From Vibrio coralliirubri (GTDB lineage Bacteria > Pseudomonadota > Gammaproteobacteria > Enterobacterales > Vibrionaceae): a stretch of 64,000 bases of DNA. The notes under the pieces are model-generated. The model saw only the letters and a program-made list of their open reading frames with translations. It did no database searches and was not told the origin of the DNA. Position numbers and translations under genes: made by a program. The stretch is from the NCBI RefSeq assembly GCF_024347375.1, contig NZ_AP025470.1:2480001-2544000 (forward strand), in the 5' to 3' direction. This document shows positions 23,612-30,356 of the stretch, one piece after another (position 1 is the stretch's first letter; every line of letters starts with the position of its first letter).

Positions 23612-23644
23612 AAAAGGGACTGGTATTTCTACCCGTCCCTTTTT
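23612..23644. terminator. Palindromic terminator repeat, divergent copy A
   Basis: Arms AAAAGGGAC-T-GGT and ACC-C-GTCCCTTTTT around ATTTCT, between convergent genes ending at 23552 and 23665. Same layout as four better-conserved copies at 28829, 31043, 33437 and 36438. Confidence 0.85.
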
Positions 23645-23664: not shown

Positions 23665-24549
23665 TTACTTAAGCTTGAACACCAACACTTTGTTGTATGC
23701 CGTTACCATCAGTAACTCTTGCTGTTTCCCGCCAATTTCTAGGTTGCTGATATGGCCCGCATCAATAGCAATGAAGTCAATCTGCTTACCGTCTTTATCG
23801 AACACACCCACGCCACCGTGCGCTGCAACAAATAGGTTGTCATCGGCATCAACAGCGACACCATCAACCATAGGTTCAGAGCCAGACTCCGCCTTCACCT
23901 GGGCAAACTGCGTCTTATTGCTGAGTGACTGTCCATCAACATCAAATCGGTATACCCAGCCATCAGATGTGTCGGCAACGTATAACGAAGATTCATCAGA
24001 AGAAAAAGCGATGCCGTTTGGTAACTTGAACTCTCCCGTGATCAGCTTTAGGTCACCATCTAGGTAACGATAAACGCCATTAACCGGTTGCTCTGGTTCT
24101 GCCTTTGCTGGGCCGTAACCTTGGATACCAAACGGAGGATCGGTAAACCACACGCTGCCATCGCTGTTAACGGTTAAATCGTTAGGGCTATTAAGCAGTT
24201 TGCCGTTATACGTTGCAGCGACAATCACTTTCTCTCCGTTGCCCTCACGGTACGACAGCTTTCTATCATGGCGGGCAGCCCACAGGTTGCCTTTGGCATC
24301 AATATCGAGACCATTGGCATAGCCAGAATTGTCATCAAAAACGCTCAACTTGCCGTTAAGATCGTAAGAATAGGTTGTGTTATTTGGAATATCGCTAAAC
24401 AAGAAACGTTGATGTTCCACATCCCATGTTGGGCCTTCAACAAAGCCGAATGAGTCTCCAACCAATGTTGGGTTGCTTTCTACAACAGAGGCAGCTGAAA
24501 CATTCATAGAGGCAGCCATTGCAGCGGTAATAAGTAGTAATTTGTTCAT
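23665..24549 (-). CDS. Exported SMP-30/gluconolactonase-like beta-propeller protein
   Basis: 294 aa. Signal peptide MNKLLLITAAMAASMNVSA predicts periplasmic location. SMP-30 motifs: FVEGPTWD near residue 37, SDIPNN, NGLDIDAKGNLWAARH, SPNDLTVNSDGSVWFTDPPFG (metal-site Asn/Asp) and NGIAFSSDESSLYVADTSDG. Likely a lactonase or esterase that uses a divalent metal. Divergent from the LysR gene at 24649, its probable regulator. Confidence 0.9.
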   Translation of the reverse strand: MNKLLLITAAMAASMNVSAASVVESNPTLVGDSFGFVEGPTWDVEHQRFLFSDIPNNTTYSYDLNGKLSVFDDNSGYANGLDIDAKGNLWAARHDRKLSYREGNGEKVIVAATYNGKLLNSPNDLTVNSDGSVWFTDPPFGIQGYGPAKAEPEQPVNGVYRYLDGDLKLITGEFKLPNGIAFSSDESSLYVADTSDGWVYRFDVDGQSLSNKTQFAQVKAESGSEPMVDGVAVDADDNLFVAAHGGVGVFDKDGKQIDFIAIDAGHISNLEIGGKQQELLMVTAYNKVLVFKLK

Positions 24550-24648
24550 TGTTCTTCTCCTTTTTGTTTACGTTTTGAATCTTAGTTTCTTGAAGGAGTG
24601 AGAAAAACAGTACAAAATGACTTCACTGTTTACTAAATAGTGTTAATG

Positions 24649-25545
24649 ATGAATTTGATTTATATGCAGACCTTCTTGACTGTCGCCGAAGAGCAAAGCT
24701 TCACCAAGGCCGCTGAAGTATTGGATGTGTCAAAAGGTTTGGTGTCTCGGCATGTACAACGACTCGAAGAAACATTGAATTCTAAGCTGTTTCACAGAAC
24801 GACTCGTTCTATCAGCCTCACGGAAGTGGGCGAAGAGTTGTATTCGAAAGCGAAGCAAATTCAACTATTAGCAATCGAAGCGGAAATGCGTGTCTTAGAC
24901 ATGACGCAGGAAGTGGCAGGCGATTTAAAAATTACCGCACCGATAGAGTTTGGGCGTGCGCTTTGTCGTCATATCATCCCTACTTTCAAGCAAGAGTACC
25001 CAAAAGTGGATTTGATTCTCGACTTTGGGCCGATGAAAAAGAAGATCGAGTCTGGCGACTTTGACATTGCTTTTCGAGCCTACGATGAACTGCCTAATGA
25101 TGTGATTGCCAACGATCTCGGGCATATCCGCAATGTTCTCGTTTGCAGTGCGGGTTACGCATCGACTAACCCACTTGCCACCACTAAAGACATCCATAAA
25201 TGCAGCTTCATTCTTAACAGTCAAAATGAACGTTGGAATCAGCTGGAGTTGATCAATGGTGAGCAAACCTACCATGTTGAAGTAACCGGAAGCGTTAGCT
25301 CGAATACCTACAGTTCAATTTTAGAGTTAGCGATGCAAGGGATAGGTGTCGCCAGCTTGCCGTTCTATCAAGTTGAAGAGCAGCTCAAACAAGGTGTGCT
25401 TATTCACGTGTTTCCAGAATGGTCGATAAAAGCCCAAAAGCTAAGCCTTATCTATGCTCAAAGAAGGGTAACACCGCAGAAGTTGGTCACTTTTAACCGA
25501 GCGGTAAAAGAGTGGTTGGAATCGAATAACGCTTATACGTTGTGA
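24649..25545 (+). CDS. LysR-family transcriptional regulator
   Basis: About 298 aa; ATG 24646 and 24649 are adjacent candidates. N-terminal helix-turn-helix (YMQTFLTVAEEQSFTKAAEVL, LVSRHVQRLEETL, RTTRSISLTEVG), C-terminal effector domain of the CrgA/AaeR-like group. Divergent from the SMP-30 gene. Confidence 0.9.
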   Translation: MNLIYMQTFLTVAEEQSFTKAAEVLDVSKGLVSRHVQRLEETLNSKLFHRTTRSISLTEVGEELYSKAKQIQLLAIEAEMRVLDMTQEVAGDLKITAPIEFGRALCRHIIPTFKQEYPKVDLILDFGPMKKKIESGDFDIAFRAYDELPNDVIANDLGHIRNVLVCSAGYASTNPLATTKDIHKCSFILNSQNERWNQLELINGEQTYHVEVTGSVSSNTYSSILELAMQGIGVASLPFYQVEEQLKQGVLIHVFPEWSIKAQKLSLIYAQRRVTPQKLVTFNRAVKEWLESNNAYTL

Positions 25546-26061
25546 GTCTTAGAACGGCGAATCTTCAATTTGAATGCATGTACGTTCCATTTATATCAGG
25601 CTCAATCACACTGCTTTCGATAACTGATTGGCTGCCGTGTTTTCGCATGTTTTGAAACACCCTCCCCCTCTAACTCCCCCTCAAGTTGAGTTCATCACCC
25701 CCTCTAGATTGACGATCGAGGGGGAGAATCTTCTTTGGCGCTGAATATATAACTGCGCACGTAACGATCGGTATTCTGTGCCTCCTCTTTCTACAAACCA
25801 CGATGGATCGAAGATGCAGATTAAGGGAGGTTAGGAAAGAGTTTAAGGTTGGACCAACACGGGGTTGCCCCATTGCGTGTTAGATACCCCAATTGACCTA
25901 GATACTATTCCTAATCTGGAATGGCTTTGGGTAATAAGCCTCACAGGATGTCAACTCTAGACAATAAGTACAGATAAGAAAATTTATGGGTTACTCATTC
26001 TGACCGATGGGACTATTATAAGACCTAGCTCAAATTAGCGATATGTCACTTAAAGTACTAT
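25546..26061. other. Gene-poor stretch with hairpin repeats
   Basis: No convincing gene. Contains C-rich sequence with an inverted repeat CCCCCTC / GAGGGGG (25698-25724) and a dispersed repeat at 25781-25840 (listed separately). It separates the LysR gene from the AAA/HNH cassette and looks like the left flank of an acquired segment. Confidence 0.6.
25781..25840. repeat. Dispersed GATGGATCG-type repeat, copy 1
   Basis: Resembles 30292-30353: both begin CCTCC(T/C)CTTT, share ATGGATCG(A/T)AGATG(C/T)A in the middle, and end A(A/G)GGGAGGTTAGGA. The ends are complementary, so each copy can form a hairpin. They bracket the AAA/HNH cassette and the pyrophosphatase gene. Confidence 0.65.
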
Positions 26062-26214
26062 GTGCCACTGGTGGCAAACACTCATGAGCCGCATAGGGAA
26101 GAGATTATTAATACAATGACTAAGCCGCCTATCCTCCTTCACCGCAATATGGTTATTGCACGACTCACTGAGCGTGTTAAAGGCTTCATCAGTACGTTTT
26201 ATGGTGGGATGTGA
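26062..26214 (+). CDS. Possible short gene coupled to the AAA ATPase
   Basis: Open frame with candidate starts GTG 26062, GTG 26071 or ATG 26116, ending TGA at 26212-26214 so that the stop overlaps the next ATG (TGATG). Product 32 to 50 aa, basic C-terminal part (RNMVIARLTERVKGFISTFY). No good ribosome site. It may be a leader peptide, a gene remnant or chance; its last codons contain the GGTGGG ribosome site of the ATPase gene. Confidence 0.25.
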   Translation: MPLVANTHEPHREEIINTMTKPPILLHRNMVIARLTERVKGFISTFYGGM

Positions 26215-27794
26215 TGATTAACTTCGTAGTCTTGGATAGAAATGTACACTTACCTACCACCAGTATAAGCACCGTTTACCTGAAGGTGGATTTTTGGAAT
26301 GATTATTCTTTTGTAACAATGTTTTACATGACGGTGTTTGACCAGAACGGCACGTTACATGACATTGGTAATGTGAAAATCGCCTTTAAGAGCCAAACAA
26401 TAAGTACCAGCACACACTCTACACTAGGGGGGAGTTTCGATCATCTCACTGACAAGTACTTCTCTGTTGGGGAAAATGTTGAATATTATAAGAACCTGAA
26501 CAAGCTAGATGATAGGCTGAAGAAGCATATTTTAAATTCCTTGCAGGATATCGTTTATCTGCCGGCTAGATTGCCTGATATTGAAGATGAAGAAGTGTTA
26601 AACACCTCCTTGTTTCGTGGCGTAACATTGTCAGAAGTTCATGGCCAGTTTGCAAGGGTATTAGAAGGTTTTGCGGAGCTTTCAGATTTCAACTTCAATT
26701 TTATACGTAGTGGCGCGGACGGCTTTTGTGATTTGAGAGTACCTTTTAAGGTGATGGTCAACTCAGTCCCAAGTACAAACATACACGCCTTTATTGGTCG
26801 TAATGGCTGCGGAAAGACAACGATATTAAATGGTATGATAGCTGCCATTGTAAGGCCAGATAACGACAAACTATTTTTTACCGAGAGCAACTACTTCAAT
26901 GAGTCACGGATACCCACTGGGTATTTTCGCTCGTTGGTATCTGTATCATTTAGCGCTTTTGACCCCTTTTCTCCGCCTCAAGAGCAACCTGACCCAGCCA
27001 AAGGTACAAAGTACTTCTATATCGGATTAAGAGATAAACATAATAATCAGGTCTTAAGCTCTCTCGATGATCTGCGCTTGGAGTTTGTATCCGCTTTGAT
27101 TGGTTGCTTGAGAGCAGAAAGCAAAAAAGCGCTGTGGCTTAAAGCGATTGAAAAATTAAGTAGCGATCAGAACTTCTCAAATATGGGGCTTAGTATCCTT
27201 AATACTAGGTATATTGCCCTTAGAGATAAGACAGCCAATACGCAGGTCGATAGCAATGAGTTCAGGGATCTGCTTTATCAGGATATTCACAAGTACCTTT
27301 CTCGGATGAGTTCTGGACACGCCATTGTTTTATTTACTGTAACTAGATTGGTAGATACGGTTGGTGAGAAGTCACTTATTTTGATCGATGAACCAGAAGG
27401 GCATCTGCATCCCCCGTTGTTAGCTGCTTTTTTACGGACTTTGAGCGAATTACTCTATGCGAAAAATGGTGTTGCTATAATAGCTACGCACTCTCCAGTT
27501 GTATTGCAAGAAGTGCCTAAATCTTGTGTATGGAAGGTAAACCGTTCTAGAGAAGCTATAAATGTACAACGGCCAGAAATTGAAACATTTGGAGAAAATC
27601 TTGGAGTGCTCACTCGAGAGGTGTTTTCCTTGGAAGTTGAAAATTCGGGGTATCATTCGTTGTTAGCTACTTCTGTTGAATCGGGCCTTTCTTATGAAGA
27701 TATTTTGGCCCAATACGGCAGTCAGATTGGCTTGGAAGGGAGGACTGTATTGAAAGCTATGGTCCTTAGTAGAGACTCAGGTCAGACTCAATGA
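26214..27794 (+). CDS. AAA-family ATPase of a Septu-like defence cassette (PtuA-like)
   Basis: 526 aa from ATG 26214 (GTG 26211 also possible). An N-terminal domain of about 190 residues precedes Walker A GRNGCGKTT at about 195; an ABC-type signature-like MSSGH lies near 365, Walker B LILIDEPEGHLHP near 390, and the switch histidine in IIATHSP. This RecF/OLD-like arrangement matches ATPases of anti-phage systems. The stop overlaps the HNH gene start by four bases (ATGA), so the two are translationally coupled. Known: in Septu the PtuA ATPase partners the PtuB HNH nuclease. Inferred: defence role here. A related AAA/HNH subtype not called Septu is possible. No reverse transcriptase nearby, which argues against a retron. 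Confidence 0.75.
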   Translation: MINFVVLDRNVHLPTTSISTVYLKVDFWNDYSFVTMFYMTVFDQNGTLHDIGNVKIAFKSQTISTSTHSTLGGSFDHLTDKYFSVGENVEYYKNLNKLDDRLKKHILNSLQDIVYLPARLPDIEDEEVLNTSLFRGVTLSEVHGQFARVLEGFAELSDFNFNFIRSGADGFCDLRVPFKVMVNSVPSTNIHAFIGRNGCGKTTILNGMIAAIVRPDNDKLFFTESNYFNESRIPTGYFRSLVSVSFSAFDPFSPPQEQPDPAKGTKYFYIGLRDKHNNQVLSSLDDLRLEFVSALIGCLRAESKKALWLKAIEKLSSDQNFSNMGLSILNTRYIALRDKTANTQVDSNEFRDLLYQDIHKYLSRMSSGHAIVLFTVTRLVDTVGEKSLILIDEPEGHLHPPLLAAFLRTLSELLYAKNGVAIIATHSPVVLQEVPKSCVWKVNRSREAINVQRPEIETFGENLGVLTREVFSLEVENSGYHSLLATSVESGLSYEDILAQYGSQIGLEGRTVLKAMVLSRDSGQTQ

Positions 27795-28678
27795 AAAAAC
27801 TACAACCCCACGACATAACTTTTGGTGATATGTTGGAGAAATGCTCTGAGGGTATGGACCAGGTCCATGTGAAAGCCAACTTTGTCGCCCACTTACCCAT
27901 ATTTTCATCAAAGGAAACGCAGTATCAGGGTCTGAGTTTGGCTGGCAATTTGTTTCATTATCCTAAGACGACGCCATTGACTAATGATACTCAAGTTGTT
28001 GGGAATTTGACTAAGCGAAAGCTGGTTAACCTATACGAGAACAATCTGAGAAATAAAGAAAAGCCTGCTAGGCGCTTCTATGACGAGCTATTGATATCTT
28101 CAGGGGAAAGGTGTCCGTTTTGTGGTGATATCGGACAAACCAAGAATCTTGATCACTTTTTGCCCAAGGCTCACTTCCCAGAGTTCTCTATTATGCCTCT
28201 CAATCTAGTCCCATCATGCCGCGATTGTAATATGGGGGAGAAGGGGCAGAATTACGCTACTGTCGAAGAAGAACAAGCGATTCATCCATATATTGATAAA
28301 GACATGTTTTTTCAGGAGCAATGGGTATTCGCAGAATACCTTGATGAGGATGAGGGTGCTCTTAGCTACTATGTAAGTTGTCCAGTTACGTGGCGTAAAG
28401 AAGATAAAGCCAGAGCACACAACCATTTTACGAATCTAGATTTAGCTAGTCGCTATCGATTAGAAGCTGGTAAACACCTTAGTGAAGTAATCGATCAGAA
28501 AAATGCTTTCAGAAATATGATTCTAAGGTTTAGCCCCAACGCAATGCCAATCGATATCAAAAATGCTTTTGTCGAGGCAAATCTTCAACCGATGATAGAC
28601 TCGGACCAGTTCAATAACCACTGGAAAAAAGTTATGTACCAGTGTTTAGCTAATTCAAATGAGTTCTTTGGGATTTAG
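27791..28678 (+). CDS. HNH endonuclease of the AAA/HNH cassette (PtuB-like)
   Basis: 295 aa. Zinc-type HNH: C108 and C111 in ERCPFCG, D121-H122 in LDHFLPK, N138 in MPLNLVPSC, C143 and C146 in SCRDCN. All expected metal and catalytic residues appear present, so it is probably an active DNA or RNA nuclease. Regions before (about 1-105) and after (about 155-295) the HNH core are larger than in minimal HNH proteins and probably contact the ATPase. Coupled to the ATPase gene by ATGA overlap. Confidence 0.8.
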   Translation: MKKLQPHDITFGDMLEKCSEGMDQVHVKANFVAHLPIFSSKETQYQGLSLAGNLFHYPKTTPLTNDTQVVGNLTKRKLVNLYENNLRNKEKPARRFYDELLISSGERCPFCGDIGQTKNLDHFLPKAHFPEFSIMPLNLVPSCRDCNMGEKGQNYATVEEEQAIHPYIDKDMFFQEQWVFAEYLDEDEGALSYYVSCPVTWRKEDKARAHNHFTNLDLASRYRLEAGKHLSEVIDQKNAFRNMILRFSPNAMPIDIKNAFVEANLQPMIDSDQFNNHWKKVMYQCLANSNEFFGI

Positions 28679-28828
28679 TTTTTTGCTCATGAAATTTCAC
28701 TTCAGATGGTGAAAAGCAATCCTACTTACCGACTAGTCTCGCATTTTTTTATCGCCACCAAGCCACTCTGTTTTGGCTGGTAAAACTGAATTGTCCAACC
28801 CCAATTCAACACCACCCAAAAACAAAAA

Positions 28829-28852
28829 GGGATTGGTATCTCTACCAATCCC
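28829..28852. terminator. Palindromic terminator repeat, copy B
   Basis: Stem GGGATTGGTA / TACCAATCCC with TCTC loop, preceded by AACAAAAA, between convergent HNH (ends 28678) and pyrophosphatase (ends 28873) genes. Confidence 0.85.
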
Positions 28853-28872
28853 TTCTAAAGCTCTCTTAAAAC

Positions 28873-29886
28873 TTACAAGCTCTCAATTGCCTTTTGTACC
28901 GCAGGGCCAATCTGACGCTTACGCGAAGTGACGCCTTCTAACGTCAACATGTCGCTTGTTGGTTCAGCGTTGAAAGCCGATTTAATCACTTGATAGTCGC
29001 TTTCATCTACCCAAAGTAAGTTTGCTTCTTTATTCTTAGTGTCTGTGATTGAGAAGAACAGATGGTCTAGCCCGTTCTCTTCTTTGTAAGTCTTCATTGC
29101 TGCTAGAAGATCGTCTTTACGGTCAATCAGTTGTTGAGCCGTTAGCGTTTCAGCGACACCAATACCCACCTGTTTGCCACCGTATTTAAAGTTTTTGTAA
29201 TCCAGCGTCAGAATGGTTTCAGAAGAAAGGTGACTGAGATCCGACTTAGCAATCAGCATCTGTTGGCCGAAATCTTCGATATCTGAAATGCCTGCAACTT
29301 TTGCCAGTTTCTCTGCGTACTCACGATCATGCTCAGTCGTGGTTGATGATTGGAATACGACAGTGTCAGAAAGAATCGCGCCTAAGCCGACACAAGCAAG
29401 GTGCTTAGGTAGTGTCACATCCAGCTTTTCAGCGTTATCAGCCAGAATAGTGGCAGCCGATCCCCAACCTCGAATATCCATTTCGACAATTTGTGGTGTG
29501 TTAATCGGTGAGCCACCAATTGCGTGATGATCAACCACAGCAACAATCGATGATTGGTCAATGGTTGGCGCTAGCTGAGTGACTTGGTTGAAATCCACCA
29601 GCCCCACGCGGTATGAAGAGTAATCTGTCTCTACGCGTGGCGATTCTGCATTACAGTAGTTCAAAATGAAGGTGGATTCTGGATTAATCGGCTCTGGCAC
29701 TGTCGCTGTACCACCATAGATATGAGCCGCGAGCATCGCAGACATTACCGTGTCGCTGTCTGGGCTTAGATGCCCTGTCCATACGAGATCTTCACTGTTT
29801 TCATTAGCAGATTGTTGCAAGCTAAAAGCAAAACTTGCTGAACTGAAAGACATAATTACGGCTGCAACGACAGGGGTTAGCTTCAC
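28873..29886 (-). CDS. ppaC: Exported manganese-dependent (family II) inorganic pyrophosphatase
   Basis: 337 aa from GTG 29886, which has AAGGAA six bases upstream; upstream in-frame codons lack this. DHH-superfamily motifs: GHLSPDSDTVMSA, FILNYC, VDFN, VVDHHAIGG, then the C-terminal DHHA2 part ending in SRKRQIGPAV, the substrate-binding SRK motif. Hydrolyses pyrophosphate to phosphate using Mn2+ in the family. Unusual: residues 1-24 look like a Sec signal peptide (KLTPVVAAVIMSFSSASFA), so the enzyme is probably periplasmic; most family II enzymes are cytosolic. Monocistronic. Confidence 0.88.
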   Translation of the reverse strand: MKLTPVVAAVIMSFSSASFAFSLQQSANENSEDLVWTGHLSPDSDTVMSAMLAAHIYGGTATVPEPINPESTFILNYCNAESPRVETDYSSYRVGLVDFNQVTQLAPTIDQSSIVAVVDHHAIGGSPINTPQIVEMDIRGWGSAATILADNAEKLDVTLPKHLACVGLGAILSDTVVFQSSTTTEHDREYAEKLAKVAGISDIEDFGQQMLIAKSDLSHLSSETILTLDYKNFKYGGKQVGIGVAETLTAQQLIDRKDDLLAAMKTYKEENGLDHLFFSITDTKNKEANLLWVDESDYQVIKSAFNAEPTSDMLTLEGVTSRKRQIGPAVQKAIESL

Positions 29887-30356
29887 GGGTATTTCCTTAT
29901 TTGAATGCGATATAGAACCCCATAAGCTAAACACCAAAAATTTCAGAACCGTGTCACCAATATTTCAGATTTACTTCAGTGAGTAACGAAATGTAATTTC
30001 CCTCTTCTTCTCCCCGTCAATTTGGACTGAGCCCCCCTTTCTATTACACTCCCGCCACAACCAATTTGGGATTAGTTCAGCTTTTCATTATTTCACAATG
30101 AATTTCAATGAACCCTAATGATAAGAAAGCTAAGACACTGATTTATTGACCACATAACATCATCAACCCGAATACTAGAAATGAGATAATCTTATTAAAA
30201 TTTGATTAGAAGAAGACAAAAAAAGGCTACAAAGCAGCCCTATTGAGTAAGCATAAATGAGCTATTCATTCATCGGTATCGAGGTTTTGTTCCTCCCCTT
30301 TCCCACTACTAGTAATGGATCGTAGATGTAAGCCAAGGGGAGGTTAGGAGGGGATT
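29887..30356. other. Intergenic stretch with repeat, no gene seen
   Basis: Between the pyrophosphatase and RlpA-like genes. No credible coding frame. The right part (30292-30353) is a dispersed repeat; the left part presumably holds the pyrophosphatase promoter. Confidence 0.6.
30292..30353. repeat. Dispersed GATGGATCG-type repeat, copy 2
   Basis: Partner of 25781-25840. CCTCCCCTT at one end pairs with AAGGGGAGG at the other, so a long hairpin is possible. Abuts the stop of the RlpA-like gene. Confidence 0.65.

Follow-up and report, generated by a model that had tools for sequence, protein, structure and literature searches.

A chromosomal relative of the phage lambda Ea59-Ea31 gene pair in Vibrio coralliirubri, a probable Septu-like defence module with a likely restriction-operon past

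Two overlapping genes of Vibrio coralliirubri, encoding an ABC ATPase and an HNH nuclease, are identified by their sequences as a two-gene Ea59-Ea31 module, a family already named PDC-M01 in PADLOC. They lie in a stretch of 64,000 nucleotides (contig NZ_AP025470.1, positions 2,480,001 to 2,544,000; here the window, by whose numbering positions are given unless a locus is named). We put at roughly three in four (about 0.74) the probability that this module, placed in a variable chromosomal slot, acts as an ATPase-controlled nuclease defence similar to Septu and was once part of a restriction operon. A preliminary description, made from the letters alone, had taken the pair for a Septu subtype or an unnamed defence family. 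The likeness to a Septu defence pair is upheld by the PDC-M01A/B and PtuA1 models and by a PtuB-like fold, whereas the family turns out to have a name, being that of lambda Ea59/Ea31 and PDC-M01.

The two frames, their motifs and their overlap were found in the list of open reading frames (ORFs) just where that description had placed them:

26214..27794, plus strand: Ea59/PDC-M01A-type ABC ATPase, 526 amino acids, with an alternative start GTG at 26211
27791..28678, plus strand: Ea31/PDC-M01B-type HNH nuclease, 295 amino acids

The overlap is the four nucleotides ATGA (27791-27794). The earliest start in the ATPase frame is GTG 26211; the likelier one, ATG 26214, agrees with the relatives. The Walker A motif GRNGCGKT stands at residue 195 and is followed by MSSGH from 365, Walker B (LILIDEPEGH) from 388 and ATHSP from 424; the HNH protein carries CPFC at 108, DH at 121 and NLVPSCRDCN at 138. 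The earlier estimates of about 190 residues before the P-loop and about 295 for the HNH protein were thus close (194 residues and 295 amino acids). The key motif residues do not vary across 44 aligned ATPases and 39 aligned HNH proteins, hand-chosen among the 120 matches listed for each search. Judged from the sequence, both genes are intact with their ATPase and HNH motif residues kept, and the conserved motifs fit the PtuAB plan, in which the HNH nuclease is under the control of the ATPase.

The family assignment rests on both proteins. The ATPase has PDC-M01A (PDLC04235) as its best PADLOC model, with 662.8 bits over residues 4-523, and the HNH protein PDC-M01B (PDLC04256), with 383.2 bits over residues 1-293; we found no difference between the window pair and PDC-M01. 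Phage lambda Ea59 shares 66.5% protein identity with the ATPase and lambda Ea31 62.5% with the HNH protein, both over the full length. The lambda genes (NC_001416.1, ea59 25396-26973 and ea31 24509-25399) have the same order and the same four-nucleotide overlap, and their products give identical top PADLOC models. The pairs differ in setting, that of lambda being phage-borne and adjoining int, whereas that of the window is chromosomal and lies downstream of a relic of hsdR. Among 50,697 phage records, 19 have an HNH match and 24 an ATPase match, of which 17 and 22, respectively, show 60-80% identity. Lambda and its relatives make up most of these, and the genes concerned in lambda are ea59 and ea31. 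These comparisons show the window pair to be orthologous to lambda ea59 and ea31.

Past work on the family is scattered. PDC-M01 is a candidate label, and the papers naming it present the system as a prediction in the parts of their text that were available. Going by its title, Zhou et al. (1994) reportedly described a gene for phage resistance in Streptomyces lividans that resembles lambda ea59; by this description it would be ea59-like, as is the window ATPase gene. No link between lambda and Septu appeared in the titles and abstract openings of the Ea59, Ea31 and PDC-M01 literature, preprints and most subscription papers lying outside this search.

The lambda pair itself, whole or in part, is present at 99% identity or more in 91 of 5,426 Escherichia coli genomes, with at least 80% of the pair in 68. 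An HNH-family search of genome contigs gave 14 loci. At seven of them (L088-L094), in unrelated hosts, the pair identities are exactly those of lambda, on contigs of about 48.5 kb (three) or 11.7-27.7 kb (four), and these are probably contamination of public genomes with lambda DNA. The HNH identity at L087 equals that of the seven.

Septu PtuA/PtuB and the PtuAB of type I-A retrons likewise consist of an ABC ATPase and an HNH protein, in the same gene order, and it could be asked if the window pair is simply an ordinary, divergent type I Septu system. We consider this unlikely. In its favour are a PADLOC PtuA1 model (PDLC00282) that matches the ATPase over the full length with 602.9 bits, and the 41 cases of duplicate PADLOC calls as both Septu and PDC-M01 given in the part of one study available to us (PMC11811056). 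On the other hand, the ATPase reaches 53.8 bits against NCBIfam NF041760 (PtuA of retron Ec78; cut-off 500), and the HNH protein matches PtuB profiles weakly: 14.7 bits against TIGR02646, below the cut-off of 52.15, and no PtuB model among the best 25 of 56 PADLOC rows. As a control, a PtuB encoded elsewhere in the same genome scored 151.7 bits against TIGR02646, and the retron PtuB of this genome gave 209.0 and 206.7 bits with the HNH_I-A and PtuB1 models. At the level of sequence models, the comparison made in the preliminary description gives mixed signals for PtuA and fails for PtuB.

The predicted structures bring the two families closer. AlphaFold2 models of the ATPase (pLDDT 84.0) and of the HNH protein (pLDDT 85.8) give the latter a PtuB-like fold across the whole protein, as looked for in a Septu relative, and the ATPase core an ABC fold for which PtuA is listed top among the matches, though tied. 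Such folds would also suit an ordinary Septu. About 143 N-terminal residues of the ATPase fall outside the fold match and set it apart from the PtuAB of Septu and retrons; this region was modelled within the whole ATPase, and its lack of a match is not evidence for a new fold. The HNH protein is also larger (295 amino acids, against 213-262 in seven Vibrio PtuB proteins) and misses the PtuB sequence model, and no reverse transcriptase, which a type I-A retron would have, accompanies the pair, the ORF list showing no frame of that size in the slot. The same genome encodes a type I-A retron (reverse transcriptase, PtuA, PtuB) elsewhere (L118:4644-7898; C1, about 2.118-2.121 Mb). PARIS fits poorly as well: the AriA model gave 61 bits, its best stretch covering 69 of 304 profile positions, and the partner is an HNH protein, whereas AriB is not. 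No non-defence family is named for the pair in the libraries searched. Taken together, sequence and models indicate that this is probably a Septu-like ATPase and HNH pair serving as an anti-phage defence module.

Most likely the pair also works like Septu. The accessible parts of the literature report tRNA-Tyr cleavage for Septu and retron PtuAB and cite an E. coli Septu as cutting nicked DNA (PMC13096335, PMC11555353). Mutations in Walker A/B and in the HNH motif of Septu EcB88 are described as abolishing immunity (PMC13096335). By analogy, the ATPase would oligomerise, bind the HNH protein and keep it in an inactive or poised state. Phage infection would give a signal, possibly received through the extra N-terminal region, that alters the ATP state and frees the nuclease activity. 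The HNH protein would then cut nucleic acid, either phage DNA or host tRNA as in some PtuAB, and phage growth would halt.

Directly upstream of the pair is the trace of a different past:

26068..26214, plus strand: remnant of the C-terminal 48 codons and stop of hsdR (tblastn), sharing TGATG with the start of the ATPase gene

The preliminary description had noted this TGATG overlap of a short frame (26062-26214) with the ATPase gene, correctly; the frame is a decayed hsdR tail and does not belong to the system. In Psychrosphaera sp. B3R10 (locus L083) the genes run hsdM, hsdS, a 144-amino-acid frame without PADLOC match, hsdR and then directly the ATPase-HNH pair, with PADLOC scores of 551.6 (MTase_I), 325.2 (Specificity_I) and 983.8 bits (REase_I). 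Residues 943-990 of this HsdR match window positions 26068-26211 at 54% identity down to an identical last residue (tblastn; E 1.3e-14 with composition statistics off, 1.7e-12 at default settings). None of 5,000 shuffled controls was as good, and among 2,556 six-frame windows of 50 residues one scored 122 and the next best 36. The remnant also matches the HsdR ends at 14 of 26 HsdR loci from 22 genomes of the genus (E up to 0.05). In the own genome no HsdR of this family was found at E 1e-100. Compared with genome G083, the remnant shows 12 non-synonymous and 1 synonymous codon differences, against 49 and 74 in the HNH gene. We reject the short frame as a leader peptide or third gene of the system, since it represents the C terminus of HsdR and, at 12 to 1, bears no sign of purifying selection. 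Given the tail match and the pattern of codon differences, the pair most likely moved together with the hsdR end, which is now decaying; this suggests an origin in a type I restriction-modification operon. The pair would formerly have been last in such an operon, as it is in Psychrosphaera, and would have been relocated with the final hsdR codons.

It should be noted that the support for this history has its limits. Only a single intact operon running from hsdR into the pair was found, that of Psychrosphaera. At 26 HsdR loci from 22 of 226 genomes of the genus, the flanks, covered up to 1.5 kb, do not show the pair. At default settings and E <= 0.01, the tail is seen among 22 Ea59-type loci at the own locus only, and the G083 locus (L003) lacks it. 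With composition statistics off, remnant-like matches precede the pair in G083 (37 residues, E 0.003) and in Marinomonas (L084; 12 residues, E 0.056), both among the best 15 matches, nine further upstream stretches lying outside these. A bolder version would see in Ea59-Ea31 an ancient branch of PtuAB-type immunity in its own right, which has an N-terminal region of its own for sensing and serves lambda as a prophage-borne defence. The pair would have begun at the end of type I restriction operons, or have travelled for a long time as their two final genes, and the hsdR tail of the window would be a relic of that stage. We offer it tentatively, as rather doubtful: its odds are lowered by the presence of the tail at one of 22 Ea59-type loci at default settings. 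At a locus in a different genus (L161:195-401, genome G300), an internal HsdR fragment, residues 654-722, precedes an Ea59-type ATPase gene by about 1.1 kb.

The hsdR end also bears on the idea that the genes are a lambda-type accessory for phage DNA metabolism, with Ea59 as endonuclease, left behind by a former prophage and taking no part in host defence. The nearest named pair does adjoin int in lambda, both genes are present at 8 of 11 viral-contig loci, and the 1994 title terms ea59 an endonuclease gene. The scrap upstream of the window pair, however, is hsdR and not phage sequence, the ORF list shows by eye no integrase or phage gene between 23 and 32 kb, and the pair follows hsdR in Psychrosphaera, all of which makes this account improbable. 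A toxin-antitoxin-like or plasmid-exclusion module is very improbable: Pfam AAA_21, among the family annotations of the ATPase, bears an AbiEii note and retron-Eco7 PtuAB halts growth without its antitoxin (PMC11555353, as far as its text was available), but no third gene of a system is seen and the proteins resemble two effector subunits and not a toxin with its antitoxin.

The Septu-like defence reading would join four things, namely two non-essential genes of lambda, a PADLOC candidate family, a phage-resistance gene reported in 1994 and Septu. If lambda Ea59-Ea31 is an active PtuAB-like defence, one of the best-studied phages bears an immune module that has gained little recognition. The hsdR relic would be direct sequence evidence for a defence pair leaving a restriction operon and reaching a new site. 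Two things make the locus interesting: the connection that runs from lambda to the fold of Septu, and this relic.

The pair occupies a slot with the following borders and neighbours:

24640..25545, plus strand: LysR-family regulator (PF00126/PF03466), left neighbour, outside the exchanged segment
25648..25872, no strand: intergenic repeat of 225 bp, the slot border away from the DHH gene
25873..28790, no strand: exchanged segment, absent from the compared slot relatives (blastn, DNA alignments)
28825..28856, minus strand: terminator-like hairpin, right slot border, a palindrome copy common to the slot relatives
28873..29937, minus strand: DHH/DHHA2 protein (ppaC; PF01368, PF02833), the slot anchor

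We take the DHH/DHHA2 protein to be manganese pyrophosphatase-like. With it and the LysR regulator flanking the pair, the earlier statement that no housekeeping gene lies in the flanks is roughly right. In blastn comparisons with nine slot relatives, homology ends on the left at 25832-25882 in eight and at 25541 in G018, and resumes on the right at 28789-28827 in all nine; these limits put the exchanged piece at about 2.9 kb. Positions 25996-28684 match the DNA of the G083 pair at 81.7%, there at a different genomic site (blastn). A LysR protein of 98% identity adjoins the same slot in G018, and in G087 the LysR gene, the repeat and the DHH gene flank the slot as they do here, with transposase-like frames where the pair would be.

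A DHH gene match at E <= 1e-60 was found in 48 of 227 genomes of the genus, and slot contents were read downstream of it in the best 26, the own genome included. The content varies widely, with few shared cases: G018 (L032:7150-9039) and G121 (L068) have a 629-residue protein of unknown family, that of G018 without Pfam or PADLOC match, and G006 and G242 have 737-residue proteins with identical first 50 residues. PADLOC, run on one or two hand-picked genes per slot in 15 of the 26, gave strong matches in five (the pair described here, PDC-S06 in G006, PD-Lambda-1 in G011, Hachiman HamA/HamB in G005, and PDC-S15 in G223, there with an Mrr_cat neighbour), a weak one in G139 (27.9 bits) and none in nine. 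Several of the other 11 slots hold transposase- or metabolism-like genes by eye. The slot is thus variable; defence genes turn up in it repeatedly but do not make up all of its content.

The border repeat is matched at 82-84% in the slots of G193, G139, G151, G005 and G087, with other genes inside. In 14 of the 26 genomes no more than about 10 kb separates it from the DHH gene (up to three candidates scored per genome). Its copy in G005 is directly upstream of the Hachiman hamA. Of three further copies in the own genome, two (C1 2116727-2116902 and 2114184-2114312) follow the retron I-A module on its downstream side, at distances of about 0.7 and 3.3 kb, and the third (C2 1691680) has neighbours that look unrelated to defence. 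A folded RNA formed by the repeat was rejected (z-score 0.02), and so was an RNA component of the system, Rfam giving no match at gathering score in 24500-30000. A tRNA-anchored island was rejected, the window having no tRNA, as was a sigma-70 promoter of the pair's own (6 promoter-like sites in 25400-29000, 7.4 in shuffles).

The dispersed hairpins of the preliminary description proved to be one palindrome, GGGATTGGTA-NNNN-TACCAATCCC. With up to three mismatches it occurs five times in the window, where 0.01 copies are expected, at 23616, 28829, 31043, 33438 and 36438, within 13 kb; the genome has six sites, with one weak one in all the rest. The repeated terminators might serve recombination at the locus. 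In the G018 slot (L032:6715-7015) a second DHH 3' end with its terminator, 83% identical, may record a previous exchange.

Conservation of the pair at one locus, which would have spoken against a defence role, was not observed. The ATPase is matched in 61 of 196 genomes of the genus at E 1e-3 and in 10, own included, at E <= 1e-40; the other nine all have an adjoining HNH relative. Five of these nine have a DHH gene match, with the pair near it in none, so that where it could be checked the pair lies elsewhere; the other four have no DHH match row. Across the order, ATPase matches at E 1e-80 were found in 8 of 394 genomes. G083 holds one near pair (L037:7102-8681) whose ATPase is split over two frames, with the HNH gene intact.
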